DNA of 64,000 bases from Rhodococcus sp. X156 (lineage in GTDB: Bacteria; Actinomycetota; Actinomycetes; Mycobacteriales; Mycobacteriaceae): contig NZ_CP034766.1 of the NCBI RefSeq assembly GCF_004006015.1, positions 1,583,001-1,647,000 on the forward strand, read 5' to 3'. Below, one piece after another: positions 15,922 to 46,762 of this stretch (position 1 is its first letter; the number at the start of each line of letters is the position of its first letter). The translations under genes were made by a program, and so were the position numbers. A model generated the notes under the pieces. The model did no database searches and had not been told where the DNA came from. It was given only the letters and a program-made list of their open reading frames with translations.

Positions 15922-15939
15922 TGGCTTACGCTGCTCGCC

Positions 15940-16090: not shown

Positions 16091-19000
16091 GTGCGCATCG
16101 CGCTGCTCTCAACCTCTGACACCGACCTGCTCTCCGCCCGCGCCAGCGGCGCCGACTACCGGTGGGCCAACCCCGCCCGTCTCGCGGCGCGCAGCTGGGC
16201 GGAGGTGACCGCCGGCGCCGACCTGGCCGTGGTCCGCATCCTCGGCGGCCCGCAGGACCTCGGTGCGGACTTCACCGCCCTGCGCGCCAGCGGCGTGCCG
16301 GTGGTGGTGCTCGGCGGGGAGCAGCAGCCCAGTGCCGAGCTGACGGAGCTGTCCACCGTGCCCATCGGCGTGGCCGCGCAGGCGCACGCCTACCTGGCCG
16401 AGGGCGGGCCGGCCAACCTGGCTCAGCTGCACGCGTTCCTGTCCGACACCGTGCTGCTCACCGGGGAGGGCTTCGCCGCGCCGGCCACGGTCCCGGTGTG
16501 GGGCTTCGCCGAGCGCGCCCCCGGTGCCGACGGCCTGCCCCGCGTCGGTGTCCTCTACTACCGCGCCCACGAGGTCAGCGGCAACGCCGCCTTCGCGCAC
16601 GCACTGGCCGACGCGGTGGATGCCACCGGCCGCGCCGTGGGCGTGCCGATCTTCGCCGGGTCGCTGCGCTCGGCGCCGGAGGAGCTCTACACCGCGCTCG
16701 GCAGCCTGGACGCCCTGGTGGTCACCGTGCTGGCCGCCGGGGGCAGCGTGCCGGCCACCGCCTCGGCCGGGGGTGCGGACGAGGCGTGGGACGTGGAGCG
16801 GATGGCGGCGCTGGACATCCCGGTGCTGCAGGGGCTGTGCCTGACCTCCACCCGCGCCGAGTGGGCGGCCTCCGACGACGGGGTGACGCCGCTGGACTCC
16901 GCCACCCAGATCGCCATCCCGGAGTTCGACGGCCGCATCATCACCGCGCCGTTCTCGTTCAAGGAGATCGACGCCGACGGCCTGCCCCGCTACGTGGCCG
17001 ACCCCGAGCGCGCCGCCCGGGTGGCGGGCATCGCCGTCAACCACGCCTGCCTGCGCCACGTCCCGCCCGCCCAGCGCCGGATCGCGCTGATGCTCTCGGC
17101 CTACCCCACCAAGCACTCCCGGGTGGGCAACGCGGTGGGGCTGGACACCCCGGTCTCCACCATCCGGCTGCTGCGGCGGCTGCGCGAGGCCGGCTACGAC
17201 CTGGGCGCACCGGGGGAGATCCCCGGCCTCGACCTGCCCGCTGACACCGAGGCCGCTGACACCCAGGCCGCTGACACCCAGGCCGCTGACACCCAGGCCG
17301 GCGACGCCCTGATCCACGCGCTGATCGCCGCCGGCGGTCAGGACGAGGAGTGGCTCACCGCCGCGCAGCTGACCGACGCGCACGTGCGCATCAGCCCCGC
17401 CGACTACCGGCGGTGGACCGCAGACCTGCCCACGGAGCTGATGGACGACGTCGTCGCGGCGTGGGGAGCCGCACCGGGCACGCTGTTCACCAACGACGCC
17501 GGCGAGATCGTGCTGGCCACCATCCAGGCCGGCAACGTGGTGCTGCTCATCCAGCCCCCGCGCGGGTTCGGGGAGAACCCGGTGGCCATCTACCACGACC
17601 CCGACCTGGCCCCCAGCCACCACTACCTGGCCGCCTACCGCTGGGTGGAGCACGGCTTCGGCGCGCACGCGGTGGTCCACCTGGGCAAGCACGGCTCGAT
17701 GGAGTGGCTGCCCGGCAAGAACGCGGCGCTGTCAGCGTCCTGCGCCACCGACGCCGCCATCGGCAACCTGCCGCTGATCTACCCGTTCCTGGTCAACGAC
17801 CCCGGAGAGGGGGCGCAGGCCAAGCGCCGGGCGCACGCCACCATCGTCGACCACCTCATCCCGCCGATGGCGCGGGCGGAGACCTACGGCGACATCGCCC
17901 GGCTGGAGCAGCTGCTCGACGAGCACGCCAACATCGCCGCCATGGACCCGGCCAAGCTGCCGTCGGTGCGCGGGGAGATCTGGCAGCTGATGCACGCCGC
18001 GGAGATGCACCGCGACCTCGGCCTGGAGGAGCGGCCCGGCGACGAGGAGTTCGACGACTTCCTGCTGCACGTGGACGGCTGGCTCTGCGAGATCAAGGAC
18101 GCCCAGATCCGCGACGGCCTGCACGTGCTGGGCCAGGCGCCGCAGGGGCAGGCGCGGGTCAACCTGGTGCTGGCCATCCTGCGGGCGGCGCAGGTGTGGG
18201 GCGGGCAGTCCCAGGCGGTGCCCGGGCTGCGGGCGGCGCTGGGACTCAAGGCCGACGAGGCGGTCACCGCGGTGGACGCGGTGGAGGAGCGGGCTCGGGC
18301 ACTGGTGCAGGGCATGGAGGACGCCGGCTGGGTGCCCGACGCCGCGGTGGCGCTGCACGACGACCCGCAGGTGCAGCAGGTGCTGCGCTTCGCCGCCGAG
18401 CAGGTGGTGCCGCGGCTGGCCCGCACCACCGACGAGCTGGACGCGGTGCTGCACGCCCTGGACGGCGGGTTCGTCCCCGCGGGGCCGTCGGGCTCCCCGC
18501 TGCGCGGCCTGGTCAACGTGCTGCCCACCGGCCGCAACTTCTACACCGTCGACCCCCGCGCCGTGCCCTCACGCCTGGCGTGGCAGACCGGCCAGGCGAT
18601 GGCCGACTCGCTGCTGCAGCGCTACCTCGACGACACCGGTGAGTACCCGGCCTCGGTGGGGCTGAGCGTGTGGGGCACCAGCGCGATGCGCACCTCCGGC
18701 GACGACATCGCCGAGGTCCTGGCGCTGCTGGGCGTGCGACCGGAGTGGGACGAGGCGTCGCGGCGGGTCAGCGACCTGCACGTGGTGCCGCTGGCCGAGC
18801 TCGGGCGGCCCCGCATCGACGTCACGGTGCGCATCTCCGGGTTCTTCCGTGACGCCTTCCCGCACGTGGTGGCCATGCTCGACGACGCCGTCCGGCTGGT
18901 GGCGGCCCTGGACGAGCCCGACGAGGACAACTACGTTCGCGCGCACAGCCGCGCCGACCTCGCCGAGCACGGCGACCAGCGGCGGGCCACCACCCGCATC

Positions 19001-19717
19001 TTCGGCTCCAAGCCCGGCTCCTACGGAGCGGGCATCCTGCAGCTGCTGGAGCAGGGCAGCTGGCGCGACGACTCCGACCTCGCCGAGGTGTACACCTCCT
19101 GGGGCGGCTTCGCCTACGGCCGCGACCTGGACGGGGTGCCGGCGGCCGACGACATGCGCAGCAGCTACCGGCGCATCGCCGTGGCCGCCAAGAACGTGGA
19201 CACCCGCGAGCACGACATCGCCGACTCCGACGACTACTTCCAGTACCACGGCGGCATGGTCGCCACCGTCCGTGCGCTCACCGGCACGGCGCCGCAGGCC
19301 TACGTGGGCGACTCCACCGCACCCGACGCGGTGCGCACCCGCACCCTGCAGGAGGAGACCAACCGGGTGTTCCGCGCCCGGGTGGTCAACCCGCGGTGGA
19401 TCGGCGCCATGCAGCGCCACGGCTACAAGGGCGCCTTCGAGCTGGCCGCCACGGTGGACTACCTGTTCGGCTTCGACGCCACCGCCGGGGTGGTGCACGA
19501 CTGGATGTACGCCGCCCTGGCCCAGGAGTACGTGCTGGACCAGACCAACCAGGACTTCATGCGCACGTCCAACCCGTGGGCGCTGCGCGGCATCGTGGAG
19601 AAGCTGCACGAGGCCGCCGAGCGGGGCCTGTGGGCCGAGCCGGACCCGCAGCTGCTGGCCGCGATGCAGCAGGTGTACCTGGAGCTGGAGGGCGACCTGG
19701 AGGACGGGCGCGCATGA
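16091..19717 (+). CDS. cobN: Aerobic cobaltochelatase large subunit CobN
   Basis: A 1208-residue protein of normal CobN length. It inserts cobalt into hydrogenobyrinic acid a,c-diamide with an AAA+ partner, here most likely the ChlI/ChlD-type protein at 35720. Family segments include AYPTKHSRVGNAVGLDTP (about 335), the conserved VVHLGKHGSMEWLPGKNAALS (about 530) and GSKPGSYGAGILQLLE (about 970). Four tandem 15-bp repeats encode an A-D-T-Q-A linker near residue 384-403. The start is GTG at 16091 behind GAGGAGAA and a cobalamin riboswitch. First gene of cobN-cobF-cobQ-cobK, and its stop overlaps the cobF start. Confidence 0.96.
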   Translation: MRIALLSTSDTDLLSARASGADYRWANPARLAARSWAEVTAGADLAVVRILGGPQDLGADFTALRASGVPVVVLGGEQQPSAELTELSTVPIGVAAQAHAYLAEGGPANLAQLHAFLSDTVLLTGEGFAAPATVPVWGFAERAPGADGLPRVGVLYYRAHEVSGNAAFAHALADAVDATGRAVGVPIFAGSLRSAPEELYTALGSLDALVVTVLAAGGSVPATASAGGADEAWDVERMAALDIPVLQGLCLTSTRAEWAASDDGVTPLDSATQIAIPEFDGRIITAPFSFKEIDADGLPRYVADPERAARVAGIAVNHACLRHVPPAQRRIALMLSAYPTKHSRVGNAVGLDTPVSTIRLLRRLREAGYDLGAPGEIPGLDLPADTEAADTQAADTQAADTQAGDALIHALIAAGGQDEEWLTAAQLTDAHVRISPADYRRWTADLPTELMDDVVAAWGAAPGTLFTNDAGEIVLATIQAGNVVLLIQPPRGFGENPVAIYHDPDLAPSHHYLAAYRWVEHGFGAHAVVHLGKHGSMEWLPGKNAALSASCATDAAIGNLPLIYPFLVNDPGEGAQAKRRAHATIVDHLIPPMARAETYGDIARLEQLLDEHANIAAMDPAKLPSVRGEIWQLMHAAEMHRDLGLEERPGDEEFDDFLLHVDGWLCEIKDAQIRDGLHVLGQAPQGQARVNLVLAILRAAQVWGGQSQAVPGLRAALGLKADEAVTAVDAVEERARALVQGMEDAGWVPDAAVALHDDPQVQQVLRFAAEQVVPRLARTTDELDAVLHALDGGFVPAGPSGSPLRGLVNVLPTGRNFYTVDPRAVPSRLAWQTGQAMADSLLQRYLDDTGEYPASVGLSVWGTSAMRTSGDDIAEVLALLGVRPEWDEASRRVSDLHVVPLAELGRPRIDVTVRISGFFRDAFPHVVAMLDDAVRLVAALDEPDEDNYVRAHSRADLAEHGDQRRATTRIFGSKPGSYGAGILQLLEQGSWRDDSDLAEVYTSWGGFAYGRDLDGVPAADDMRSSYRRIAVAAKNVDTREHDIADSDDYFQYHGGMVATVRALTGTAPQAYVGDSTAPDAVRTRTLQEETNRVFRARVVNPRWIGAMQRHGYKGAFELAATVDYLFGFDATAGVVHDWMYAALAQEYVLDQTNQDFMRTSNPWALRGIVEKLHEAAERGLWAEPDPQLLAAMQQVYLELEGDLEDGRA
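17240..17299 (+). repeat. Four tandem 15-bp repeats inside cobN
   Basis: GCTGACACCGAGGCC followed by three copies of GCTGACACCCAGGCC. The array stays in frame and encodes D-T-E/Q-A-A units in a surface linker between two CobN regions. Three identical copies indicate recent slippage, so the copy number may vary between strains. Confidence 0.95.
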
Positions 19718-20442
19718 GGCGGCTGGTGGTGATCGGCATCGGCATGGGCCCGCAGCACGTCACCCCGGAGGCGGCGGCTGCACTGTCCTCAGTGGACTAC
19801 GTGCTGTCCTTCGTCAAGGGCGCTGACGATCCGCTGGTGGCGGTGCGCGCGCAGGTGTGCCGCCGCTTCGGTGACGTGCCGCTGGTGGTGGTGCCCGACC
19901 CGCCCCGCGACCGCGCCGACCCGGCCGACTACCCCGCGGCAGTGCGTGACTGGCACGCTGCCCGCGTCGCGGCCTACCGGCAGGTGCTCACCGAGCGGCC
20001 CGGCGACGTGGCCCTGCTCGCCTGGGGCGACCCGTCGCTGTACGACTCCACCCTGCGGCTGGTCGACGCCCTCGCCGCCGACGGTGACGTGACGGTGGAG
20101 GTGGTGGCGGGCATCAGCGCCCCGCAGCTGCTGGCCGCGCGGCACCGCGTGGTGCTGCACGAGGTGGGCCAGCCGGTGCACGTCACCACCGGTCGACGGC
20201 TGCGGGAGGCGGTCGACGCGGGACAGGACAACTTGGTGGTGATGCTCAACAGCACCGTGCGGCTGGACGGGCTGGCCGACTGGCAGGTCTGGTACGGCGC
20301 GAACCTCGGCGCACCGGGGGAGCAGCTGGTGGCTGGCCGGGTGAGCGACGTGCAGGCCCAGCTGGTGGCTGCCCGGGAGCGGGCTCGTGCCGCCGACGGT
20401 TGGGTGATGGACGTGCTGCTGCTGCGCCGGGAGCGGCCCTGA
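19714..20442 (+). CDS. cobF: Precorrin-6A synthase (deacetylating) CobF
   Basis: A 242-residue SAM-dependent tetrapyrrole methylase that methylates C1 of precorrin-5 with loss of the C20-derived acetate. It begins [17 protein letters not shown], the family's N-terminal glycine-rich loop, and has [14 protein letters not shown] near residue 105 and [16 protein letters not shown] near 130. Start and stop overlap cobN and cobQ (ATGA and TGATG), so translation is coupled throughout. CobF is specific to the aerobic pathway, which agrees with CobN. Confidence 0.95.
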
Positions 20443-21875
20443 TGGCCGGGCTGCTGGTGGCGGGCACCACCTCCGACGCGGGCAAGACGCTGGTGGTCAC
20501 CGGGCTGTGCCGGGCGCTGGCGCGCCGCGGCGTCCGGGTGGCGCCCTACAAGGCGCAGAACATGTCCAACAACTCCATGGTGGTCACCGGCCCGGACGGT
20601 CACGGTGCGGAGATCGGCCGCGCGCAGTGGATCCAGGCGCTCGCCGCCGGCGCCGAGCCCGAGGTGGCGATGAACCCGGTGCTGCTCAAGCCCGGCAGCG
20701 ACCGGCGCAGCCACGTGGTGCTGCTGGGCCGGCCCGCCGGCGAGGTGTCGGCCCGGGACTTCGTGGACGGTCGTCGCCACCTCGCCGCCGCTGCGCACGC
20801 CGCCTACGACGACCTGGCCAGCCGGTACGAGGTGGTGGTGGCCGAGGGTGCGGGAAGCCCCGCGGAGATCAACCTGCGCGCCGGCGACTACGTGAACCTG
20901 GGGCTGGCCCGGCATGCCGACCTGCCCACCGTGGTGGTCGGCGACATCGACCGGGGCGGGGTGTTCGCCGCCTTCCTGGGCACCGTGGCCCTGCTGGAGC
21001 CGGCCGACCAGGCGCTGGTGGCGGGCTTCGTGGTCAACAAGCTCCGCGGCGACGCCACCCTGCTCGAGCCGGGGCTGCGCCGGCTCGCCGAGCTCACGGG
21101 GCGGCGCACCTACGGGGTGCTGCCCTGGCACCCCGACGTCTGGCTGGACTCCGAGGACGCCCTCGACCTGCAGGGGCGTCGATCCCGCGGCTCGGGGCGC
21201 AAGGTCGCGGTGGTCCGGCTGCCCCGGATCAGCAACGGCACCGACGTCGACGCGCTGGGCCTGGAGCCCGGCCTGGACGTGGTGTTCGCCTCCGACCCGC
21301 GCCAGCTCTCCGACGCCGAGCTGGTGGTGCTGCCCGGCACCCGCGCCACCGTGGCCGACCTGCGCTGGCTGCGCGAGCAGGGTCTGGACCGGGCGGTGCT
21401 CGACCACGCCCGGGCCGGACGGCCAGTGCTGGGCATTTGCGGCGGCTGCCAGCTGCTGGGCACCGAGATCGCCGACCCGCACGGCGTGGAGGACCGCCCC
21501 GGCGCCGTGGTGCCTGGTCTGGGCCTGCTGGACGTGCGCACCGAGTTCACCCCCGAGAAGGTGCTGCGGCGGCACCATCCGGCGGGCTACGAGATCCACC
21601 ACGGCCGTCCTACCGGCCAGCTCAGCGCGGGGTCGGTGACCGGCACGATGGTGCACGGCAGCCTGGAGGACGACGCCACCCGCAGCGCCTACCTGGCCGG
21701 AGCGCTGCCCGGGTGGACCCCGTCCGGGGTGAGCTTTGCCGCCGCCCGGCAGCGGCGCCTCGACCTGCTCGGCGACCTGGTGGAGCGCCACCTGGACGTG
21801 GACGCCCTGCTGGCGCTGGCCCAGGCGGGGGCACCGGCGGGTCTGCGGCTGCTGGAGCCGGGGGCGAGCCGGTGA
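20442..21875 (+). CDS. cobQ: Cobyric acid synthase CobQ
   Basis: A 477-residue glutamine-dependent amidase that amidates the b, d, e and g side chains of adenosylcobyrinic acid a,c-diamide. The N-terminal dethiobiotin-synthetase-like ATP domain has [12 protein letters not shown] at residues 6-17 and [12 protein letters not shown] near 40. The C-terminal class I glutaminase domain has the nucleophile Cys333 in [10 protein letters not shown] and a late EIHHG. The ATG overlaps the cobF stop, and the stop overlaps the cobK GTG. Confidence 0.96.
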
Positions 21876-22624
21876 GGGTGCTGGTGCTGGGCGGCACCGC
21901 CGAGGCCCGGGCACTGGCCGCGGCGCTGGTGGCGGAGGGCGTCGAGGTGGTCTCCTCGCTGGCCGGCCGGGTGCAGCGGCCGCGGCTGCCGGTGGGACAG
22001 GTGCGCATCGGCGGCTTCGGCGGAGTGGCGGGACTGCGGGCCTGTGCCGCGGACTTCGACGCCGTGGTGGACGCCACCCATCCCTTCGCCGCCCAGATCA
22101 CCGCCAACGCGGCTGCCGCGTGCACCAGCACCGCACTGCTGCGCCTGGCCCGGCCGGGCTGGGCGGCCGACGACCCGGGCAGCTGGACGTGGGTGGACTC
22201 CCACGAGGAGGCCGCCACCCAGGCCGCGGCCGGCCAGCGGCCGTTCCTCACCGTGGGCCGCCAGGAGCTCGGGCGGTTCGTGGGGCCGCTGGCGGAGCAC
22301 GCCGTGCTGGCCCGCGTGGTGGACGAGCCGGAGCAGCCGCTGCCACCGGGCTGGCAGCTGTTGCGCAGCCGAGGACCGTACACAGTGGACGGTGAGCGTG
22401 CGGTGCTGGCCGAGCACCGGGCGGACGTGCTGGTCACCAAGGACTCCGGCGGAGCGCACACCCGCGCCAAGCTGCACGCCGCGGCGGAGCTGGGAGTGCC
22501 CGTGGTGGTGGTGCGCCGGCCGCCGCTGCCGGCCGGGCTGCGCACGGTGGCTGACGTGGCCGCCGCACTGGCGTGGGTCACTGCTCAGGGCCTGGCTGGC
22601 AAGGTTGGTCGGGGTCCGGCGTAG
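21872..22624 (+). CDS. cobK: Precorrin-6A reductase CobK
   Basis: A 250-residue NADPH-dependent reductase acting between CobF and CobL. It opens [16 protein letters not shown] (nucleotide-binding loop), then has [13 protein letters not shown] near residue 66 and [19 protein letters not shown] near 188, all characteristic of CobK/CbiJ. The start is GTG overlapping the cobQ stop. Last gene of the operon. Confidence 0.95.
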
Positions 22625-33729: not shown

Positions 33730-35067
33730 TCACATCCGCGCGTGCACAGCGTCGGCGAAGCGCTGCGCCAGCTGGGGGTGCCCGGCCCAGTGGGTGTGCA
33801 GGTAGGAGGCGTGCAGCGTCGCCCCGGTGTGCCCGATCACCACGCCGTCCACGATCCACGCCGGGGCATCCCCGGCCTGCGGGATGGTGTGGGTGCGGTG
33901 GAACTCGTGCCCGGTGACGCACTCGCCGGCGCGGGTGAGCAGGGAGTCGGTGGCGGCCCGCGCCACCGGGTAGCGCAGGGTGAGCCGGTCGGTCATCGCC
34001 GCGTCGGCGTCCAGCACCCCGGCCATCGGGTGCTCGTCCAGGGCGCGCGAGAGGTACAGCAACCCGGCGCACTCGGCCACGGTGGGCACCCCGTCGGCCA
34101 CGGCGGCGGCGATCGCCCGGCGCAGCGGCTCGTTGGCCGACAGCTCGGCGGCGTGCACCTCTGGGAACCCGCCACCCAGGTACAACCCGGCGGTCCGGGC
34201 GGGCAGCGCCGTGTCGGCCAGCGGGTCGAAGGGCACCACCTTGCAGCCGGCGGCGGCCAGCAGCTCGTCAGTCTCGGTGTAGCGGAAGGTGAACGCGCGC
34301 CCGCCGGCCACTGCCACCACCGGCCGCCGCGCCGATGCTGCGGTGACCTCCGCCGCCGGGTCCCACGCCGGGGCGTCCAGCTCGGGGGCGGTGCGGGCCA
34401 GGGCGAGCACGGCGTCGAGGTCGACGTGCTCGGTGATCTGTTCGGCCAGCCGGTCCAGGGCAGCGGCGGAGAGCTCCCGCTCCGCGGCGGGCACCAGGCC
34501 GAGGTGGCGCGACGGGGCAGCCACCGCGTCGTCACGGGGCAGAACGCCCAGCACGGGCAGGTCGATGGCCGCGGCCACCTCGGCGGCGTGCCGCGGGGAG
34601 CCCGCCTTGTTCAGGATGACGCCACAGACCTCGGTGTTGGAGTCCCAGGTGGCCAGGCCGTGCACCACGGCGGCGATGGTGCGGGAGGCACGGGAGATGT
34701 CCACCACCAGCACCACCGGGGTGCGGGTCAGCGCGGCGACGTGGGCGGTGGAGGCGAAGCCGTGGCCGCCGTTGCGGCCGTCGAAGAGCCCCATCACCCC
34801 CTCCACCACCGCCACGTCAGCCCCCGCAGCCCCGTGCAGCAGCAGCGGGACCACCCGGCCCTCGCCCACCAGGTGCGGGTCGAGGTTGCGGCCGGGCCGC
34901 CCGCAGGCCAGCGCGTGGTAGCCGGGGTCGATGTAGTCCGGGCCCACCTTGTGCCCGCTCACCCGGTGACCGGCGCGGGTGAGCGCGGCCATCAACCCGA
35001 TGGCCACGGTGGTCTTGCCCTGCCCCGTTCCGGGCGCGGCCAGCACCAGCCGGGGCAGCGCGCTCAC
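33730..35067 (-). CDS. cobB: Hydrogenobyrinic acid a,c-diamide synthase CobB
   Basis: A 445-residue glutamine-dependent amidase for the a and c side chains of hydrogenobyrinic acid. The N-terminal ATP domain has LAAPGTGQGKTTVAIGL at residues 8-24 and KVGPDYIDPGYH near 40. The C-terminal glutaminase domain has GLYLGGGFPEVHA near 290 and the nucleophile Cys in VAECAGLLYLS near 335. The GTG overlaps the cobO stop (GTGA), so the two are coupled. CobB acts directly before the chelatase step. Confidence 0.95.
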   Translation of the reverse strand: MSALPRLVLAAPGTGQGKTTVAIGLMAALTRAGHRVSGHKVGPDYIDPGYHALACGRPGRNLDPHLVGEGRVVPLLLHGAAGADVAVVEGVMGLFDGRNGGHGFASTAHVAALTRTPVVLVVDISRASRTIAAVVHGLATWDSNTEVCGVILNKAGSPRHAAEVAAAIDLPVLGVLPRDDAVAAPSRHLGLVPAAERELSAAALDRLAEQITEHVDLDAVLALARTAPELDAPAWDPAAEVTAASARRPVVAVAGGRAFTFRYTETDELLAAAGCKVVPFDPLADTALPARTAGLYLGGGFPEVHAAELSANEPLRRAIAAAVADGVPTVAECAGLLYLSRALDEHPMAGVLDADAAMTDRLTLRYPVARAATDSLLTRAGECVTGHEFHRTHTIPQAGDAPAWIVDGVVIGHTGATLHASYLHTHWAGHPQLAQRFADAVHARM

Positions 35068-35719: not shown

Positions 35720-37684
35720 TCAGGCAGCGGTGCGGGCGAGGCCGGTGAGCACGTCGGCGCTCACCTGGCTCACCGGGACGTGCTCGGCGCGCAGGTGCTG
35801 GGCCAGCACGGCGGCCAGGCCCAGGCGCAGCGCACCGCTCTCGCAGTCCACGACGACGCTCGCGACGCCACGGGCGGCCAGCCGGTCGGCGGCCGTGCGG
35901 GATCGGGCCACGGCGCCGGCCCCGGCGGTGGCGCGGCCGTCGGTGACCACCACCAGCAGCGGGCGCCGGGCCGGGTCGCGGCGCGCCTCGATGTCGAGCA
36001 CCCGGGCCGCCTCGAGCAGCCCCTCGGCCAGCGGGGTGCGCCCGCCGGCGGGCATCGTCTGCAGCCGGGCGGCGGCCACGTCGGTGGACCCGGTGGGCGG
36101 CAGCAGCAGCTGAGCACCGGTGCCGGAGAACGTGATCAGCCCGACCTTGTCGCGCCGCTGGTAGGCGTCCAGCAGCAGGGAGAGGATGGCCGTCTTCACC
36201 TGCTCCATCCGCTTGCGCGCGGCCATCGAGCCGGAGGCGTCCACGCAGAACAGCACCAGGTTGGACTCCCGGCCCTCGCGCACCGCCACCCGCAGGTCGG
36301 CCGGCTGCAGCCGCAGCCGGCCGTCGGTGCGGCCGCGGGCACCCTGGTGGGGGACCGCGGCGAGCACGGTGCCCAACAGGTCCAGCGGGCCGTCGCTGCC
36401 GGCGCGGCGGCCGACCCGGCGACCGGAGCTGGTCAGGGCCCGACTGCGGCGACCCGCGGCACCGGTGCCGGTGCCGGCCACGGCGAACAGGCGGGAGCGG
36501 TACGGCGTGCCCGCCGACGCGGTGCTGGGGGCAGCGCCGGCGGGTGCCTCGGTGTCAGCGTCGTGGCTGTCCGGCGGGGCTTGGGCGGGGCCGTCATCCG
36601 CAGCCTCGTGACCGTCACCGGGGCCGTCTGGTGTCGGCGGGTCGGGCTCGGGGTCGCTCTCCGCCAGCAGTTGGTCGAGCTGGTCGGTGTCCAGGCCGGG
36701 GGAGTCGAAGGGGGTGCGCCGCCGCCGGTGTGGCAGGGCGAGGCGGGCTGCGGCGCGGATGTCCTCCCGGGTGACGGCGCTGCGCCCGCACCAGGCGGCG
36801 TGGGCCACGGCGGTGCGGGCGGTGACGATGTCGCCGCGCAGCCCGTCCACGTCGAAGGCGGCGCAGACCTCGGCGATGGCCAGCAGCGCGGAGTCGGTCA
36901 GCGTCACCCCGTGGATGCGCTCCCGGGCGGTGTGGATCCGCTCGCGCAGGGCGTCCTCGGCCGGTTGGTAGGACGCGGCGAACCCGGCGGGGTCGGCGTC
37001 GAAGGCCAGGCGGCGGCGCACCACGGCCACCCGGGCCTCGGCCTCGCGGGGTGCGGCCACGTCCACGGCCAGGCCGAAGCGGTCGAGCAGCTGTGGGCGG
37101 AGCTCGCCCTCCTCGGGGTTCATGGTGCCCACCAGCACGAACCGGGCGTCGTGGGCCAGCGACACCCCGTCGCGCTCCACCGTGGCCCGTCCGGTGGCGG
37201 CAGCGTCGAGCAGCAGGTCCACGAGGTGGTCGTGCAGCAGGTTCACCTCGTCGACGTAGAGGATCCCGCGGTGCGCGCGCGCCAGCAGGCCGGGCTCGTA
37301 TTCCGCGCGACCCTGCGCCAGCGCCCGCTCCAGGTGCAGCGAGCCGACGAGGCGGTCCTCAGTGGCCCCGACGGGCAGCTCCACCAGCCGTACCGGCCGG
37401 CTCTGCACGGTGCCGCCGGGGCCGTCCGGGGACGCCGCGGCGGGATCGTGCGGATCGGCGGAGAACCGGTCACCAGCCCAGACGTCGATGGGTGGAAGCA
37501 CCCCCGCCAGGGCCCGGACCGCAGTGGACTTGGCGGTGCCCTTCTCCCCGCGCACCAGCACACCGCCGATCTCCGGGGAGACCGCGCTGAGCACCAGGGC
37601 GAGGGCCAGGTCGGGGAGGTCCTGCAGGTCCTCGGACCCGACCAGGGCGGAAAATGGGTACACGAAAGGCTGGTGCTGTGGCAT
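35720..37684 (-). CDS. chlID: ChlI/ChlD-type AAA+ chelatase subunit (fused), partner of CobN
   Basis: A 654-residue fusion. The N-terminal ChlI-like AAA+ domain (about 1-340) has Walker A GEKGTAKST near residue 46, Walker B ILYVDEVNLL near 140 and sensor VLVGTMNPEEG near 182. A long acidic, Pro-rich linker spans about 350-405. The C-terminal ChlD-like VWA domain has the MIDAS motif DASGSMAARKR near 475 and TDGRAT near 590. Actinobacteria use this protein in place of CobS/CobT. The ATG at 37684 has GGGAG upstream; an in-frame ATG eight codons earlier is less likely. Behind a cobalamin riboswitch. Confidence 0.93.
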   Translation of the reverse strand: MPQHQPFVYPFSALVGSEDLQDLPDLALALVLSAVSPEIGGVLVRGEKGTAKSTAVRALAGVLPPIDVWAGDRFSADPHDPAAASPDGPGGTVQSRPVRLVELPVGATEDRLVGSLHLERALAQGRAEYEPGLLARAHRGILYVDEVNLLHDHLVDLLLDAAATGRATVERDGVSLAHDARFVLVGTMNPEEGELRPQLLDRFGLAVDVAAPREAEARVAVVRRRLAFDADPAGFAASYQPAEDALRERIHTARERIHGVTLTDSALLAIAEVCAAFDVDGLRGDIVTARTAVAHAAWCGRSAVTREDIRAAARLALPHRRRRTPFDSPGLDTDQLDQLLAESDPEPDPPTPDGPGDGHEAADDGPAQAPPDSHDADTEAPAGAAPSTASAGTPYRSRLFAVAGTGTGAAGRRSRALTSSGRRVGRRAGSDGPLDLLGTVLAAVPHQGARGRTDGRLRLQPADLRVAVREGRESNLVLFCVDASGSMAARKRMEQVKTAILSLLLDAYQRRDKVGLITFSGTGAQLLLPPTGSTDVAAARLQTMPAGGRTPLAEGLLEAARVLDIEARRDPARRPLLVVVTDGRATAGAGAVARSRTAADRLAARGVASVVVDCESGALRLGLAAVLAQHLRAEHVPVSQVSADVLTGLARTAA

Positions 37685-37723
37685 GGGAGGCTCCCGCTCG
37701 TCCGCCATCGGATAGGAGCCACA

Positions 37724-37862
37724 AGGCCGGTCTTCGGACTTCCTGGATCTCGGTTCGCACCTCGTCCAGGTCACCGCAGCGGGCCTGTGCCGGACTCTCA
37801 CCGGCTTCCCAGATTCTCCCGTCAACCCGACCTGTGGGGGTCGGACCTCGGGGCACCTCGTG
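37724..37862 (-). promoter_or_regulatory. Cobalamin riboswitch upstream of chlID-cobO-cobB
   Basis: On the minus strand GGGAAGCCGGTGAGAGTCC leads into CACAGGCCCGCTGCGGTGACC, and the B12 box AGTCCGAAGACCGGCC ends about 45 bp before the start codon. The stretch after it, down to GAGCGGGAGCC and the ATG, closely resembles that after the cobA riboswitch. Confidence 0.92.
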
Positions 37863-37891
37863 GCTGTGGGGTGAGGGTAGCGTCTGCCGCC

Positions 37892-39148
37892 ATGCCTGCC
37901 CCCACCCCCCGTTGCGCGGGTCACCCGCCGACGCCTCCGCTGCTGGTGGTGGGCGTCGGCGCGGATGGCTGGGAGAGCCTGCCGGAGGCGGCTCGCGCCT
38001 GCGTCCGCGAGGCCGAGGTGCTGCTCGGCGGGGCCCGTCACCTGGGGTTGGTGCCCTCCGACGTCACCGCGCTGCGCGAGCCGTGGCCGGCCCCGCTGCG
38101 CGCGGGTCTGCCCGCCTTGCTGGCCCGGCACGCCGGCCGTCGGGTGGTGGCGCTGGCCTCCGGTGACCCGCTGGTCTCCGGCGTCGCCACCACGCTGGTG
38201 GAGCTGCTCGGGGCCGAGCGGGTGCAGGTGCTGCCGGCGGTGTCCTCGGTGTCGCTGGCCCGGGCCCGGATGGGCTGGTCGGCGGAGTCGACCACTGTGG
38301 TCACCGTGGTGGGGCGCGACCTGCACGCGGTGCTGCGCGAGCTGGCCCCTGGCCACCGGGTGCTGGTGCTCTCCGCTGACGAGCGCACCCCGGCGGCGCT
38401 AGCGGCGCTGCTCACCACCCACGGCTACGGCGCGTCGGTGATGACCGTCCTCGGCGACCTGGGCGCACCCACCGAGAGCCGCACCGAGGCCACCGCCGAG
38501 CAGTGGTCCGGGCCGGCCCCGCGGCTGCACGTCATCGCACTGCAGCTGGCCGGCCCGGTCGTCTCCAGCTGGGCAACCGGCTTGCCGGACAACGCTTTTC
38601 AGCACGACGGGCAGCTGACCAAGCGTGACCTGCGGGCCAGTGCGCTGTCCCGCCTGGCACCGCACCCCGGGGCGCTGCTGTGGGACGTCGGTGCCGGTGC
38701 CGGGTCGGTGGGCATCGAGTGGATGCGGGCGCACCCGACGTGCCGGACCATCGCCGTGGAGTCCCACCCCGACCGGGCCGCACGGGTGCGCCGCAACGCC
38801 GCGAGCCTTGGCGTGCCGAGGCTGGTGGTGGTCGAGGGTCGGGCGCCGGACGCCCTGGAAGGTCTGTCCACACCGGACGCGATCTTCGTCGGCGGCGGTG
38901 CCACCCGCGCGGGCGTGCTCGAGCGGTGCCAGGCTGCGCTGCGCCCGGGCGGGCGGCTGGTGGTGCACGGAGTGACCCTGCAGACCGAGGCCGCACTGGC
39001 CCAGGCACACGCCACCCACGGCGGGGAGCTGACCCGGCTGGCCATCGAGCACGCCGCCCCGGTGGGCACCTTCACCGGGTGGACCCCGGCCCGCACCGTC
39101 ACCCAGTGGGCGTGGACCCGCCCCGCCGCAGAGGAGAACCCGTCGTGA
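37892..39148 (+). CDS. cobL: Precorrin-6B C5,15-methyltransferase (decarboxylating) CobL
   Basis: A 418-residue bifunctional enzyme. The N-terminal tetrapyrrole-methylase domain (CobE/CbiE-like, about 18-205) has LLVVGVGADGWESLP, and the C-terminal Rossmann methyltransferase domain (CbiT-like, about 225-410) has LLWDVGAGAGSVGIEWMR near residue 263 and AIFVGGGATR near 330. It methylates C5 and C15 and removes the C12 acetate carboxyl. The start lies 30 bp beyond the divergent riboswitch. The stop overlaps cobM (GTGA). Confidence 0.95.
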   Translation: MPAPTPRCAGHPPTPPLLVVGVGADGWESLPEAARACVREAEVLLGGARHLGLVPSDVTALREPWPAPLRAGLPALLARHAGRRVVALASGDPLVSGVATTLVELLGAERVQVLPAVSSVSLARARMGWSAESTTVVTVVGRDLHAVLRELAPGHRVLVLSADERTPAALAALLTTHGYGASVMTVLGDLGAPTESRTEATAEQWSGPAPRLHVIALQLAGPVVSSWATGLPDNAFQHDGQLTKRDLRASALSRLAPHPGALLWDVGAGAGSVGIEWMRAHPTCRTIAVESHPDRAARVRRNAASLGVPRLVVVEGRAPDALEGLSTPDAIFVGGGATRAGVLERCQAALRPGGRLVVHGVTLQTEAALAQAHATHGGELTRLAIEHAAPVGTFTGWTPARTVTQWAWTRPAAEENPS

Positions 39149-39891
39149 CCGTGCACTTCGTCGGAGCCGGCCCCGGGGCCGCCGACCTGCTCACCCTGCG
39201 TGCTGCGCGGATGCTCGCCGACGCCGACGTGGTGCTCTACCCCGGCACGTACCTCGACGCCGAGGTGCTCAGCCACTGCCGCGAGGACGCCGAGCTGGTG
39301 GACACCCAGCACCTCGACCTCGACGCCATCACCGCGCACCTGGTGGCCGGGCACGAGCGTGGCCACGACGTGGTGCGGCTGACCTCGGGCGATCCGTCGG
39401 TGTACTCCGCGCTGGCCGAGCAGACCCGCCGGCTGGACGCGGCAGGGGTGTCGTGGGACGTGACGCCGGGGGTGGCGGCGTACGCGGCCGCGGCGGCCCG
39501 GGTGGGGCGGGAGCTGACCGTGCCGCTGGTGGCGCAGTCGGTGGTAATCACCCGCGCCCAGGCCCGCTCCACCCCGATGCCCGACACCGAGTCGCTGGCC
39601 GCGTTCGCCGCCACCCGGGCCACCCTGGTGCTGCACCTGGCCATCACCCGCACCCGCGAGGTGATGGCCGAGCTGGCGGGGGAGTACGGCGCCGACTGCC
39701 CGGTGGTGGTGGTCTACCGCGCCAGCCAGCCCGAGGAGCTGGTGCTGCGCGGCACCGTGGGCGACATCGCCGACCAGGTGGAGGCCGCCGGGCTGCGCCA
39801 GGCCGCGATCATCCTGGTGGGCCGGGCGCTGGAGCCGGCCTCCGGTGGCGAGTCCTACTTGTACGACCGGGATCGGCCGCGGCGCAAGTAA
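39145..39891 (+). CDS. cobM: Precorrin-4 C11-methyltransferase CobM
   Basis: A 248-residue SAM-dependent methylase. It starts VTVHFVGAGPGAADLLTLR, has DVVLYPGTYLD near residue 29, VVRLTSGDPSVYSALAEQ near 77 and VTPGVAAYAAAAA near 108, all characteristic of CobM/CbiF. The GTG start overlaps the cobL stop. No clear terminator follows. Confidence 0.95.
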   Translation: MTVHFVGAGPGAADLLTLRAARMLADADVVLYPGTYLDAEVLSHCREDAELVDTQHLDLDAITAHLVAGHERGHDVVRLTSGDPSVYSALAEQTRRLDAAGVSWDVTPGVAAYAAAAARVGRELTVPLVAQSVVITRAQARSTPMPDTESLAAFAATRATLVLHLAITRTREVMAELAGEYGADCPVVVVYRASQPEELVLRGTVGDIADQVEAAGLRQAAIILVGRALEPASGGESYLYDRDRPRRK

Positions 39892-42171: not shown

Positions 42172-43689
42172 TCAGTCCACGTAGCGCGGTGTCCAGACGG
42201 CTCCGCTTGCCGCCACCCGGGTGCGGGTGGCGCCCACGATGAGCAGGCACTTCATGTCGATGCTCGCCGGGTCCAGCTGGGCCAGCGTGGTCACCACCAG
42301 TGACTCCTCGGCGCGCCCGACGTCGCGGCCGACCACCACCACGGTGTCCGGGCTGCGGTGCTGCAGCAACAGCTGCTGCATGTCGGCCACCTGGTGGGTG
42401 CGGGAGCGCGACGCCGGGTTGTAGATGGCCAGCACCAGGTCAGCCTCGGCGATCGCCCGCAGCCGCTGCTGCACCACCGGCCACGGCTTGAGCCGGTCGG
42501 ACAGGCTCACCACCGCGAAGTCGGCCCCCACCGGTGCTCCGGCCCGGGCGGCCACCGCCTGCACGGCGCTCACCCCCGGCAGCACCCGGACGGGCACCGT
42601 AGCGTACGCAGGATCCTCGGCGGCCTCGTAGACCGCCGCGGCCATCCCGAACACCCCGGCGTCCCCGCCGGAGACCACCGCCACCCGCTCACCGGCGCGC
42701 GCCAGGTCCAGGGCGAACCGGGCGCGATCCACCTCCACGGTGTTGCCCGAGGCGTGCCGCTGCAGCCCGGCCCGCTGCGGCACCCGGTGGACGTAGGGCG
42801 CGTAGCCGACGACGTGGTCCACTTCGGCCAGCACCGCCGCCGCCTCCGGGGTGAGCCAGCGCTCCGGTCCGGGCCCGAGCCCGACCACCACGACCTCGGC
42901 GACCACCGCAGTGTCCGGTGTGGACGGTGTTGCGGTTGCGCGCCGTCCGTGCGGGTCGGCCTGCAGCGTGTCGCCGGGCACCACGATCATGGAGAAGTAC
43001 GGGACGCTGGCGGGGTCGACGTCGGCCACCGGCAGCCAGCGCTGGGTGGGCATGGACGCCCGCTCCACGTACAGCGCGTGCTCCAGCCGCCCCGCCTGCT
43101 CCAGCGCCCGGCGCACCGCGGGGAACGTGCGGCCCAGCTTCATGATCACCGCGGCGTCGGTGTCGGCCAGCCGTCGGGCCAGCTCCGCCTCGGGCAGGGT
43201 GCCGGGCAGCACGGTGAGCACGTCGGTCTGGCGCACCAGGGGAGCGGCCACCAGGGCCGTGGCGGCGGCGAAGGCCGGTACCCCGGCCACTACCTCGGTG
43301 GGAAAGCGGTCGGCCAGGCGGTCGTGCATGTACATGAAGGAGCCGTAGAAGAACGGGTCGCCCTCGGCCAGCAGCACCACGTCGCGGCCGGCCTCCAGGT
43401 GCGCGGCCAGCCGGGCGGCGGACTCGGCGTAGAACTCCGCCATCGCCCCGGCGTACCCGCCCGGGTGGGCGGTGGCGCCGGTGGTCACCGGGTAGCGCAG
43501 CTCCTCCTCCACCACGCCGGGCGGGATGAGGTCGGCGGCGATGCGCCGGGCGTTGGACTGCTTGCCCACCCCGGCGTGGAAGGCCACCACGTCGGCGTCA
43601 CGGATGAGCCGGGCCGCCTTGAGGGTGATCAGCTCGGGGTCCCCGGGCCCGACGCCGACGCCGGCGAACCGGCCGAGGCGCGCGCTCAC
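42172..43689 (-). CDS. cobIJ: CobI-CobJ fusion: precorrin-2 C20-methyltransferase and precorrin-3B C17-methyltransferase
   Basis: A 505-residue fusion of two tetrapyrrole methylases. CobI is about 1-240 (FAGVGVGPGDPELITLKAA, LLAEGDPFFYGSFMYMHDR, VVAGVPAFAAA). CobJ is about 258-505 (VVVVGLGPGPERWLTPEAA, VVSGGDAGVFGMAAAVYE, LAIYNPASRSRTHQ). The fusion is usual in actinobacteria. CobI works just before, and CobJ just after, the CobG step. The GTG start overlaps the cobH stop (GTGA). Confidence 0.95.
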   Translation of the reverse strand: MSARLGRFAGVGVGPGDPELITLKAARLIRDADVVAFHAGVGKQSNARRIAADLIPPGVVEEELRYPVTTGATAHPGGYAGAMAEFYAESAARLAAHLEAGRDVVLLAEGDPFFYGSFMYMHDRLADRFPTEVVAGVPAFAAATALVAAPLVRQTDVLTVLPGTLPEAELARRLADTDAAVIMKLGRTFPAVRRALEQAGRLEHALYVERASMPTQRWLPVADVDPASVPYFSMIVVPGDTLQADPHGRRATATPSTPDTAVVAEVVVVGLGPGPERWLTPEAAAVLAEVDHVVGYAPYVHRVPQRAGLQRHASGNTVEVDRARFALDLARAGERVAVVSGGDAGVFGMAAAVYEAAEDPAYATVPVRVLPGVSAVQAVAARAGAPVGADFAVVSLSDRLKPWPVVQQRLRAIAEADLVLAIYNPASRSRTHQVADMQQLLLQHRSPDTVVVVGRDVGRAEESLVVTTLAQLDPASIDMKCLLIVGATRTRVAASGAVWTPRYVD

Positions 43690-44351
43690 TCCGCCTCCTG
43701 GGCCAGGGCGTTGACGGCGGCCGAGGCCATCGCCGACCCGCCCCGGCGCCCGCGGACCGTCACGTAGGGGACGTCGATGCCGTGGTCGTCGGCGAAGCGG
43801 GCCAGCGCGTCCTTGGACTCCGCGGCACCGATGAACCCCACCGGGCAGCCGATGATCACGGCCGGGCGTGGTCCGCCGTCGACGAGCAGCTCCAGCAGGT
43901 GGAACAGCGCGGTGGGGGCGTTGCCGATGGCCACCACGGCGCCGTCGAGCAGCGGTTCCCACAGCGACACCGCCGCCGCCGTGCGGGTGGTGCTCCACCG
44001 TTGGGCGAGGTCGGGCACCTGCGGGTCCGGCAGCAGGCAGTGCACCGGGTTGCCGGCCGGCAGCCGACCAGCGGTGATGCCCATGGCGACCATCCGCGCG
44101 TCGCACAGGATGGGGGCGCCCCCGGCGAGCGCGGCGCGGGCGGTGGCCACGGCGTCCGGGTGGATCACCAGGTCGTCGGTCAGGTCCACCTGCCCGCAGG
44201 CGTGGATCATCCGCACCGCCAGCTTCTCCGCCGCGGCAGGTACCTGGGTCAGGTCGGCCTCGCGGCGGATGGTGGCGAAGGAGTCGAGGTAGATCGCCGG
44301 GCCGTCGTGGACGTAGGAGTAGCGCCGGGTGGGGCGGCGGAGCTCGATCAT
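43686..44351 (-). CDS. cobH: Precorrin-8X methylmutase CobH
   Basis: A 221-residue CobH/CbiC enzyme that moves the C11 methyl group to C12 to give hydrogenobyrinic acid. It shows AIYLDSFATIRREADL near residue 19, VRMIHACGQVDLTDDL near 46 with the active-site His, and VIIGCPVGFIGAAESKDAL near 168. The ATG overlaps the cobG stop (ATGA). Confidence 0.96.
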   Translation of the reverse strand: MIELRRPTRRYSYVHDGPAIYLDSFATIRREADLTQVPAAAEKLAVRMIHACGQVDLTDDLVIHPDAVATARAALAGGAPILCDARMVAMGITAGRLPAGNPVHCLLPDPQVPDLAQRWSTTRTAAAVSLWEPLLDGAVVAIGNAPTALFHLLELLVDGGPRPAVIIGCPVGFIGAAESKDALARFADDHGIDVPYVTVRGRRGGSAMASAAVNALAQEAE

Positions 44352-45223
44352 CGGGTCACCCCCGCGACGAGCACGCCGCGCCACGGCGTGACCACCAGGT
44401 CGCCGTCACCGGCCAGCTGCACCAGCTCGGCCACCAGCGTCGGGGAGAGAACGCCGTCGGGGGCGGGCACGTGCACGCCCCCGGGCACGGGGCCGTAGCC
44501 CAGCGGTCCCGCGGTGACGTCCACCTGGGGGTGCGGCAGCGTGGTGGCGGTGAGCGGCTGTGGCAGCTCGTCCACGTGCCACGAGGCGTCGGCGCCGTGC
44601 CCGCGCACCCGGAGGAACTCGTGCGCCAGCACCACCAGGTGCTGCGGGGCGTCGGCGATGGCGACGATCGCACCCCACCGGTTGCTGCCCACCCGCAGCT
44701 GGGCGGTGCTGGCATCCAGGGCCACGAGGCCCAGGTCGGTGGGCCGGGCGGCGAGGTCACCGCGGCCGTCGTCCAGCACGAACAGGAACCGCCCGGGCAG
44801 CTCGGCCAGGTCGGGGTCCAGGCAGATCAGCTGGTCCAGCCGGGCGGCCACGGCCCGCAGGTCGGCGCGCCCACCGGCCAGGCCGGTCTGCGGCGAGACC
44901 ATCAGGTTGCGCACCCGGTCGTGCGCGCGGGAGGGCAGCAGCCCGGTGCGCTCCACCGCGGCCACCACCGCCGCCGGCAGGCGCCCGTCGGCCAGCGGCA
45001 GGCCGCGCAGCTGCAGGTTCGCCCGCCCGGTCAGGTGCAGGTCACCGTCGCCGTGGGTCTGCGCCACGGCCGAGGCGGCCTGCAGCTGGGCGGGGGAGAG
45101 GCGGCCGCCCACCAGGCGCAGCCGCACCAGGGCTCCGTCGGCGGCCGGCCACGGGCGGGTGACGCCCGGGCAGCGGTCGGCCCGGGTGCGCGAGAGCTGG
45201 GTACGGGAAGGCACAGGGGTCAC
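44348..45223 (-). CDS. cobG: Precorrin-3B synthase CobG, C-terminally truncated
   Basis: A 291-residue nitrite/sulfite reductase-like protein. The N-terminal ferredoxin-like repeat has DRCPGVTRPWPAADGALVR near residue 16 and DLHLTGRANLQLRGL near 61. The core has SRAHDRVRNLMVSPQTGLAG near 97 and GRFLFVLDDGRGDL near 143. It ends at DLVVTPWRGVLVAGVTR. Known CobGs continue for about 70-100 residues with a Cys-rich SACTGSPGCA-type segment that binds the [4Fe-4S] cluster; that part is absent and cobH begins within the stop codon. Oxygen-dependent C20 hydroxylation may therefore be lost. Behind a cobalamin riboswitch. Confidence 0.85.
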   Translation of the reverse strand: MTPVPSRTQLSRTRADRCPGVTRPWPAADGALVRLRLVGGRLSPAQLQAASAVAQTHGDGDLHLTGRANLQLRGLPLADGRLPAAVVAAVERTGLLPSRAHDRVRNLMVSPQTGLAGGRADLRAVAARLDQLICLDPDLAELPGRFLFVLDDGRGDLAARPTDLGLVALDASTAQLRVGSNRWGAIVAIADAPQHLVVLAHEFLRVRGHGADASWHVDELPQPLTATTLPHPQVDVTAGPLGYGPVPGGVHVPAPDGVLSPTLVAELVQLAGDGDLVVTPWRGVLVAGVTR

Positions 45224-45287
45224 ACGAGTCCTCAGAGGTCTGGGGCCCTTGCGCGAAGCCCGCCGATGACCTCGCGGTGGTCACCGC

Positions 45288-45440
45288 AAGGGCCAGCAGG
45301 TCTTCGGACTCGGGATCACTCGGTGCGGAACACCTTCCCGGACCTTGTGGTCCAGTGGTCGTCCCGAAGGACACGTTCCGCCCGTCACCCTCACCGCTGC
45401 GCGTCAGTCCCGGATTCTCACTGGGTTCCCTGACTCCAAC
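45288..45440 (-). promoter_or_regulatory. Cobalamin riboswitch upstream of cobG-cobH-cobIJ
   Basis: On the minus strand GGGAACCCAGTGAGAATCC leads to GACGCGCAGCGGTGAGGGTG, then variable arms, then the B12 box GAGTCCGAAGACCTGC. The downstream stretch, with GCGGTGACCACC and GGGCTTCGCGCAAGGGCC, recurs behind the btuF riboswitch. Confidence 0.92.
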
Positions 45441-45519
45441 TGCTCATGGAGCTTGACTGGCCCCGGGAGGCTACCAACACCCCTGCCGGGCGCCCGGCCA
45501 CCGGGGGCTTATGGTTCCC

Positions 45520-45645
45520 GCAGGCTCGAGGTGCCCCACGGCGAAGCTGCCACGGGGAGAATCGGGAAGCCGGTGAGAATCCGGCACAGGGCCCGCTGCG
45601 GTGACCCAGGCTCGTACCTGGGAAGTCCGAAGACCGGCCTCGCGC
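45520..45645 (+). promoter_or_regulatory. Cobalamin riboswitch upstream of cobA
   Basis: GGGAAGCCGGTGAGAATCC, then GGCACAGGGCCCGCTGCGG, then the B12 box GGAAGTCCGAAGACCGGCC. It is back to back with the cobG riboswitch (about 80 bp between cores), so the two divergent transcripts are sensed separately. Confidence 0.92.
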
Positions 45646-45706
45646 CTCGCCCGGCCGTACTTCCGCGGTCGTGGATCCGTCATGGCAGATCGAGCGGGAG
45701 CCCTAC

Positions 45707-46762
45707 ATGCCAGCGCAGCGCCCTGTCGTTGTCCCACGCCCAAATCCATTGCCACACAACGTGTTTTCCTTCGATGTGGCCGGCCGCGCCGTGCTGGTCA
45801 CCGGGGGTGACGAGCACGCCGCCCGCGACGTGGCGGCGCTGCTGGCCGCTGGTGCCGACGTCACCGTGCGCGCCGCCGAGGTGTGCGCCGCGGTGCAGGA
45901 CCTCGCCGACCGCGGGCTGATCAGCTGGCAGCCGGCGGCACCGGAGAACCCGCCGGACTACGACGTGGTGCTGCGGCCCCGACCCCGGAGCCAGCCCACC
46001 GAGGCGCGCGAGGCAGGCCGGGGCAGCGTGGTGCTGGTGGGCGGCGGGCCCGGCGACGAGTCGCTGCTGACCGTGGCCGGCCGCGACGCCGTGGCCCAGG
46101 CCGACGTGGTGGTGATGGACCGGTTGGCCCCGTGGGGTGCACTGGCCTGGGCCCGCCCGGACGCGGAGATCATCGACGTCGCCAAGATCCCCTTCGGCCG
46201 CTCCACCTCCCAGGAGGTGATCAACACGCTGCTCGTGGAGCACGCCACCGCCGGGCGACGAGTGGTGCGGCTCAAGGGCGGCGACTCGTTCGTGTTCGGC
46301 CGCGGCATGGAGGAGGTCCAGGCCTGCGCGGCCGCCGGAGTGCCCACCCGGGTGATCCCCGGCGTCACCGCCAGCATCTCCGCACCGGCGCTGGCCGGCA
46401 TCCCCGTCACCCACCGCGGCCTGTCCCAGGGCTTCACGGTGATCTCCGGGCACGTGCCGCCGGGGCACCCGCAGTCCACCCTGGACTACGGCGCCCTGGC
46501 CCGCAGCGGCACCACGCTGGTGGTGCTGATGGGGGTGCACACGCTGCCCGCCATCGTCGCCGCCCTGCTGGCCGCCGGCATGGACCCGGCCACCCCGGCC
46601 GCGGTGGTCGCCGACGGTTCCCGGCCGAGCCAGCAGGTGGTGGTGAGCACCCTCGCCGAGCTGCCCGGGGCGGTGGCCCGAGCGGGGGTGCAGGCCCCGG
46701 CGGTGGCGGTGATCGGCGACGTGGTGTCCACCCGTGCGGTGTCACCCGCCCCACCGGGCTGA
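45707..46762 (+). CDS. cobA: Uroporphyrinogen-III C-methyltransferase CobA (with partial siroheme-synthase-like N-domain)
   Basis: A 351-residue protein. The N-terminal 90 residues (FSFDVAGRAVLVTGGDEHAA) resemble the NAD-binding domain of CysG/SirC but are short. The methylase domain, about 100-345, has SVVLVGGGPGDESLLTVAGR, VVRLKGGDSFVFGRGMEE and VIPGVTASISAPALAGIPVT, as in SUMT. It commits uroporphyrinogen III to precorrin-2. The ATG at 45707 has CGGGAG upstream; an out-of-frame ATG at 45682 precedes it. The stop is 3 bp from the convergent btuD stop. Confidence 0.93.
   Translation: MPAQRPVVVPRPNPLPHNVFSFDVAGRAVLVTGGDEHAARDVAALLAAGADVTVRAAEVCAAVQDLADRGLISWQPAAPENPPDYDVVLRPRPRSQPTEAREAGRGSVVLVGGGPGDESLLTVAGRDAVAQADVVVMDRLAPWGALAWARPDAEIIDVAKIPFGRSTSQEVINTLLVEHATAGRRVVRLKGGDSFVFGRGMEEVQACAAAGVPTRVIPGVTASISAPALAGIPVTHRGLSQGFTVISGHVPPGHPQSTLDYGALARSGTTLVVLMGVHTLPAIVAALLAAGMDPATPAAVVADGSRPSQQVVVSTLAELPGAVARAGVQAPAVAVIGDVVSTRAVSPAPPG

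Follow-up and report, generated by a model that had tools for sequence, protein, structure and literature searches.

The stretch of DNA analysed here (the window; 64,000 nucleotides of the Rhodococcus sp. X156 genome) carries B12 genes in separate blocks between positions 15905 and 49809, together with five cobalamin riboswitches, two of which lie back to back between cobG and cobA (Table 1). The ring-building genes of the aerobic route in the window are cobA, cobIJ, cobG, cobM, cobF, cobK, cobL, and cobH. With the exception of cobG and the chelatase subunit, all cob genes of the window score above the curated cut-off of the fitting family. For cobL, the match at an E limit of 1e-30 was to the CbiT half, the CbiE half not being separately shown, and the cobH query in the PRK08285 search had one extra N-terminal residue. 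A first, sequence-only reading of this DNA had described an aerobic pathway that, apart from the cobG tail, is present under riboswitch control; the complete-looking gene set and the five riboswitches agree with that description.

Table 1. Cobalamin-related features of the window, with the evidence for each
Feature	Position	Strand	Evidence or remark
cobalamin riboswitch upstream of cobN	15905..16062	+	RF00174, 40.8 bits
cobN, cobaltochelatase large subunit	16091..19717	+	TIGR02257 1090.8 bits, above cut-off
cobF, precorrin-6A synthase, aerobic pathway marker	19714..20442	+	TIGR02434 218.2 bits, above cut-off
cobQ, cobyric acid synthase	20442..21875	+	NF001989 559.5 bits, above cut-off
cobK, precorrin-6A reductase	21872..22624	+	NF005968 279.9 bits, above cut-off
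cobB, (hydrogeno)cobyrinic acid a,c-diamide synthase	33730..35067	-	NF002204 483.1 bits, above cut-off
ChlI/ChlD-like putative cobaltochelatase subunit	35720..37708	-	TIGR02442 742.5 bits, just under cut-off 779.45
cobalamin riboswitch upstream of chelatase gene	37708..37865	-	RF00174, 67.6 bits
cobL, start approximate	38180..39148	+	TIGR02469 CbiT domain 107.4 bits, above cut-off
cobM, precorrin-4 C11-methyltransferase	39145..39891	+	TIGR01465 271.5 bits, above cut-off
cobIJ fusion	42172..43689	-	505 aa; PRK05990 336.9 bits, TIGR01466 302.9 bits, above cut-off
cobH, precorrin-8X methylmutase	43686..44351	-	221 aa; PRK08285 320.3 bits, above cut-off
ATGA overlap, cobG stop/cobH start	44348..44351	-	read from sequence
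short cobG	44348..45223	-	291 aa, GTG start, without [4Fe-4S] domain
cobalamin riboswitch upstream of cobG	45278..45476	-	RF00174, 94.1 bits
cobalamin riboswitch upstream of cobA	45512..45656	+	RF00174, 68 bits
cobA, uroporphyrinogen-III methyltransferase	45707..46762	+	TIGR01469 264.2 bits, above cut-off
candidate cobO-like and BtuFCD-like genes	window		recognised by eye

The cobG product ends at DLVVTPWRGVLVAGVTR, directly past the TPW motif of the second ferredoxin-like half-domain. Its TGA stop codon occupies 44348-44350 and the ATG of cobH 44349-44351, and the two genes therefore share a 4-nt ATGA overlap. The sequence-only reading had placed the cobH ATG inside the cobG stop codon; the overlap stands, with two bases in common, but the ATG begins one base earlier and is not contained in the stop. 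The protein has only two cysteines, C18 and C134. A Pfam search at E up to 1 gives PF03460 (residues 32 to 79, 69 bits, above cut-off) as the sole match, with none to the siroheme/[4Fe-4S] domain PF01077. In NCBIfam, the CobG family TIGR02435 aligns over profile positions 1 to 300 of 388 with 141.9 bits, missing the cut-off of 234.8, and the other matches are to NirA/sulfite reductase families, not to TIGR02485. Because many Fe-S CobGs of the same class also fall below the TIGR02435 cut-off (e.g., at 233.2 and lower), this score is weak evidence by itself. Downstream of the window's cobG we found no Fe-S reading frame, which bears out the earlier statement that no leftover coding sequence follows the gene.

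A scan of genome contigs with the window's protein gave 184 relatives, of which the best 80 were kept. These 80 are 49-66% identical to the window's CobG in the best segment and come from Nocardioides, Nocardiopsis, Mycolicibacter, Dietzia, Streptomyces, Aeromicrobium, Jiangella, and other genera. Checking them for the same end, we found that all of the best 80 of the 184 (80/80) stop where the window's CobG stops, confirming that the CobG Fe-S tail is missing. Indeed, with all forward frames read over the interval from 90 nt ahead of the cobG end to 700 nt past it, none of these 80 loci encodes the CxGxPxC motif. The motif is present in 27 of 27 long CobGs obtained from searches in the window's family and order, and the C-X5-C and C-X3-C of the [4Fe-4S] domain occur in the same 27 and in 10 of 10 further long ones. 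In most rows the 27 long CobGs are 38-47% identical to the window's protein. Besides the window's own, the family contributes two short CobGs (L011 and L012); the only other genome of the window's genus in this set is G001 (91% complete), and its CobG, L038, is long. A plasmid search for short CobG returned 4 records, every one below 60% identity.

Alignment of 65 short CobGs reveals 48 invariant columns. Across 83 short and 27 long CobGs, the invariant residues are D16, C18, P19, D29, G30, R34, R36, T65, R67, N69, Q71, R73, H101, R105, N106, S110, G114, D151-G153, G155, D156, D163, and W215; D16, C18, and P19 belong to the DxCPG start motif of both CobG types. The short CobGs add R23, W25, H216, and H251 (83/83 each). 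At the sequence level, such a pattern is expected of a protein that works and is under selection.

AlphaFold, run with 65 sequences, predicts a confident, self-contained fold for short CobG (pLDDT 94.2, pTM 0.90). Foldseek returned 31 matches at E 0.001 or better, listed as sulfite and nitrite reductases; the lower PDB rows (IspG, synthetases) were taken as common folds and set aside. In VIA-align, residues 9 to 291 of the model superpose on residues 21 to 388 of Mycobacterium tuberculosis NirA (1zj8; Z 23.4, rmsd 3.6 Å, 275 aligned), and residues 32 to 291 on residues 81 to 405 of Escherichia coli SiRHP (Z 20.1, rmsd 3.0 Å, 254 aligned). NirA and SiRHP thus have the fold of their first two domains in common with short CobG and continue into the siroheme/[4Fe-4S] domain, whereas short CobG ends at NirA 388 and SiRHP 405. 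Since the SiRHP cluster cysteines lie beyond residue 405, it is the third domain that is missing, and the first two are whole. The structure alignment places the truncation point exactly at the domain border, and the predicted model shows a CobG that keeps the "parachute" (two ferredoxin-like half-domains) and the middle domain without the cluster-bearing third domain. R34 would lie near SiRHP Arg83, an active-site arginine, in a pairing read from the range ends. Compared with canonical CobG (TIGR02435), short CobG shares the DxCPG motif, the half-domains, the middle domain, the invariant residues, and the place in the pathway, and it is nested in the CobG tree. It differs in the absence of the C-X5-C/C-X3-C domain, in W25 for H25, in a score below the family cut-off, and in two histidines, one specific to the short clade (H251) and one nearly so (H216).

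The genome of Rhodococcus sp. X156 is a single contig of 3.72 Mb with an estimated completeness of 100%. Searches with PF01077, PF03460, and a CobG Fe-S-domain profile revealed neither a second CobG nor a separate Fe-S piece in it, and thus no CobG C-terminal region encoded elsewhere. PF01077 matches three further frames (591, 952, and 1112 aa), all sulfite/nitrite-reductase-like, the shortest of which is named NirA-like from its matches. The sole match of a CobG C-terminal-domain profile, built from 12 long CobGs, lies inside this 591-aa frame at E 0.0017; with this weak match as the only one, we rejected a trans-acting CobG C-terminal domain in this genome.

To place short CobG in a wider setting, we used a sample of 295 genomes of the class, each of at least 95% completeness. 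TIGR02435 was set aside as a classifier because NirA-like proteins match it too, and CobG was called with a short-CobG profile, A1, at E 1e-20 or better, a profile biased towards the short type. By this call, 127 of the 295 genomes have CobG, with one match each. The A1 scores split into 36 genomes at 345-444 bits and the next at 265 and lower, and a score of 345 bits or more was taken to define the short type. Sequence confirmed 32 of the 36 as Fe-S-less (30 loci, including the window's, plus G250 and G145); G341, G287, G334, and G079 were counted as short from the A1 score alone. The other CobG genomes comprise 4 from a second Fe-S-less family, f26, and 87 counted as long, part of which were read. 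No short-type genome has a second CobG (0/36).

CobF, the aerobic marker, accompanies the short type in 36 of 36 genomes (in two, G179 and G093, below the curated cut-off) and is present in 4/4 f26 genomes and 65/87 long-CobG genomes; the association of the short type with CobF has a Fisher p of 9e-16, a value that ignores relatedness. CbiG (PF11760) serves ring contraction in the anaerobic route. Its N-terminal domain, CbiG_N, is absent from the Rhodococcus genome, from all 36 short-CobG genomes, and from all 127 CobG genomes, and it is found in 37 of the remaining 168; CbiG and CobG never occur together in one genome of the sample. Genus code g29 contributes 3 short and 19 long CobGs, and the two types therefore replace each other among close relatives.

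Some observations on CobF extend beyond the short type. The CobFs of short-CobG genomes score 192-272 bits against TIGR02434 and most others 266-385; low-scoring CobFs also occur in three mycobacterial long-CobG genomes (G297, G344, and G311). cob genes may travel as sets. No CobF match at 1e-20 was obtained in 22 of the 87 long-CobG genomes. CobF without any CobG match occurs in 19 of 124 CobF genomes (e.g., G103, G107, G118, G133, and G142), and because 17 of these 19 have CbiG_N, mixed aerobic/anaerobic pathways exist in Actinomycetes; the 17 point to such pathways in Streptomyces-like members.

The sequence-only reading had also allowed for another oxygenase in place of CobG. One such enzyme is CobZ (TIGR02485), which, by the title of its paper, is said to be a flavin/heme/Fe-S protein unrelated to CobG. 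We found no CobZ match at 1e-40 in the Rhodococcus genome and none above the cut-off in any of the 295 class genomes, and rejected CobZ as the stand-in; weaker matches at 1e-40 occur in 21 of the 295, including 3 short-CobG genomes (G195, G213, and G241). In Rhodobacter capsulatus, CobZ carries out the CobG reaction, according to an excerpt of PMC7242693. An oxygenase of yet another kind making precorrin-3B is possible.

Absence of the Fe-S domain is not confined to the main short clade. Two f26 genomes in the class scan first showed CobG frames of about 320 aa, and a search of the family found a CobG match in 5 of 5 genomes. The four complete f26 genes (L166, L167, L169, and L170) encode proteins of 320, 327, 344, and 357 aa without an Fe-S domain and have a CobH frame directly behind; the fifth, L168, is cut by a contig end, so that its 3' part is outside the sequence. 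In trees, f26 adjoins L036, an Fe-S CobG, and lies away from the main short clade, with branch supports of 99 and 99 in a quick tree of 84 rows (42 short, 5 f26, and 37 long) and of 100/99 and 100/95 in a careful tree of 63 rows, in which the position-25 column was masked and 20 short rows and the partial L168 were left out. A single Fe-S-less clade was not rejected by the AU test on the quick tree (lnL 50.1 lower, p 0.061) and was rejected on the careful tree (lnL 84.0 lower, p 7.6e-42); further, each of the 200 bootstrap trees requires two changes for the long type. On the strength of the careful-tree rejection and the bootstrap trees, separate losses of the Fe-S domain in the main short clade and in f26 are favoured by these sequences, although not proven.

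Position 25 follows the presence of the domain closely. In the 84-row alignment it is Trp in 47 of 47 Fe-S-less rows (42 short, among which L148 and L161 are one gene, and all 5 of f26) and His in 36 of 37 Fe-S CobG rows. L017 (G053), the only Fe-S CobG without His at this position, has Tyr. We infer that the change from H25 to W is an adaptation to the absent Fe-S domain. H216 and H251 are invariant in 42/42 short rows; H216 is also present in 4/37 long rows, and neither histidine is kept in the f26 rows. Since f26 keeps neither, a cluster-free CobG does not depend on them, and we set aside the idea that they serve as replacement metal ligands.

Short CobG is also closely tied to CobH. Among the best 80 of the 184 relatives, 7 have CobG and CobH fused into a single protein (L040, L045, L058, L063, L068, L069, and L101; also fused are L143, which is the L068 protein, and L146). 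The fusions are about 495-636 aa long, the choice of start being uncertain. A crude motif search places a CobH frame at -40 to +200 nt in 61 of the 73 unfused loci and found none in the other 12. The model of fusion L040 has a pLDDT of 93.3 and a pTM of only 0.73, so the arrangement of its domains is uncertain. The adjacency of cobH and its occasional fusion suggest that CobG and CobH work close together, and at the sequence level both the fusions and the ATGA overlap indicate that synthesis of the two is tightly coupled.

Short CobG is thus a conserved protein, the sole CobG of its genomes, encoded inside what looks from the sequences like a complete aerobic pathway. We consider it probable that short cobG encodes a working precorrin-3B synthase, from a subfamily that discarded the [4Fe-4S] domain. 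Of the possibilities raised by the sequence-only reading, a cluster-free CobG variant is the one favoured by the evidence. Loss of C20 hydroxylation, also raised there, is unlikely, because the tail-less subfamily is strongly conserved (all of the best 80 of 184 relatives), CobF is always present and CbiG_N always absent in the 36 short-CobG genomes, and the aerobic gene set is governed by riboswitches. In a working short CobG, precorrin-3A would occupy the position that siroheme has in sulfite reductase, with the parachute on one side and the middle domain on the other, gripped by R34, R36, R67, N69, Q71, R73, H101, R105, and N106, all shared with the Fe-S CobGs. O2 might be activated at the precorrin site either by a single metal ion or by the tetrapyrrole itself, which is rich in electrons, and a soluble donor or the substrate could replace the electrons of the lost built-in cluster. 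A reading of the cluster list for the 4 kb around the 80 loci (best 80 of 184) pointed to no conserved gene for a redox partner. We entertain, tentatively, a further-reaching version: CobG would be a tetrapyrrole monooxygenase that twice shed its Fe-S domain and has no built-in cluster, with the precorrin (aided by a single metal at most) activating O2. Were the precorrin to activate O2 in this manner, the H25-to-W switch would mark the point of release from the cluster.

Losing the cluster could, however, abolish the CobG reaction, since the characterised CobG is said, in the title of a 2009 paper by Schroeder et al., to have an Fe-S centre and a non-heme iron. Short CobG might then be non-catalytic, a precorrin-binding carrier or scaffold for CobH/CobIJ, with another oxygenase making precorrin-3B. 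The CobG-CobH fusions, the position of cobH directly downstream, and the disappearance of the only recognised redox cofactor domain are compatible with such a role; we nevertheless regard it as unlikely, given that residues invariant in Fe-S CobGs remain invariant in the short ones and that CobZ was found neither in the Rhodococcus genome at 1e-40 nor above cut-off in the 295 class genomes. A two-component enzyme, with short CobG as its oxygenase half and a specific [4Fe-4S] protein (either a ferredoxin or one resembling sulfite reductase) docking on the open face in place of the lost domain, is mechanistically a sub-case of the putative cluster-free synthase favoured above. In the textbook scheme the CobG reaction needs a reductant, and this need and the truncation exactly at a domain border speak for a docking partner. 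In the Rhodococcus genome, the CobG C-terminal-domain profile matches nothing outside the 591-aa NirA-like frame, and reading the cluster list of the 80 loci (best 80 of 184) revealed no such conserved neighbour, which makes two components rather doubtful.

Ring contraction by the anaerobic route would remove the need for C20 oxygenation altogether, and the 19 CobF-positive genomes without a CobG match, 17 of them with CbiG_N, are a precedent within the class. Against this, CbiG_N is missing from the Rhodococcus genome, from all 36 short-CobG genomes, and wherever else CobG is present (0/127 versus 37/168); we rejected the CbiG route as very improbable. A missing tail and a TIGR02435 score below the cut-off could equally be signs of a pseudogene, a decaying pathway, or an assembly artefact. 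Conservation across genomes refutes this: the same end recurs in 80/80 of the best 80 of 184 relatives from many records, the protein is strongly conserved with a confidently predicted fold, and the neighbouring genes are intact among five riboswitches, so that we give decay or artefact virtually no credence.

One physiological link is only suggestive. A study of non-tuberculous mycobacteria (PMC8192938) includes M. terrae among its strains and lists no cobG for it in the gene table. The study reports cobalamin in lysates of the species measured, with the lowest value, 3.7 ng per mg, in M. innocens, and the table also omits cobH for M. phlei, a species with much B12. All 9 Mycolicibacter loci among the best 80 of our 184 relatives have a short CobG. 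In the open-access literature we found no description of a CobG without the Fe-S domain; subscription papers and supplements were outside this search, and a description elsewhere is possible.

The CobG family and its pathway are known; what is new is that the redox domain has been lost, that this has apparently recurred, and that a residue switch goes with it. Because the short form persists in many actinobacteria whose pathway is otherwise complete, the need for the iron-sulfur part can now be tested: the role of the CobG [4Fe-4S] cluster and the activation of O2 can be compared between native enzymes of one pathway that have the cluster domain and others that lack it. The pairing of domain loss with the change from H25 to W in two clades singles out one residue for experiments. 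Should the short form prove active, B12 producers would be under-called wherever annotation requires a full-length CobG or scores by TIGR02435, and engineered B12 synthesis would gain a smaller, cluster-free enzyme.
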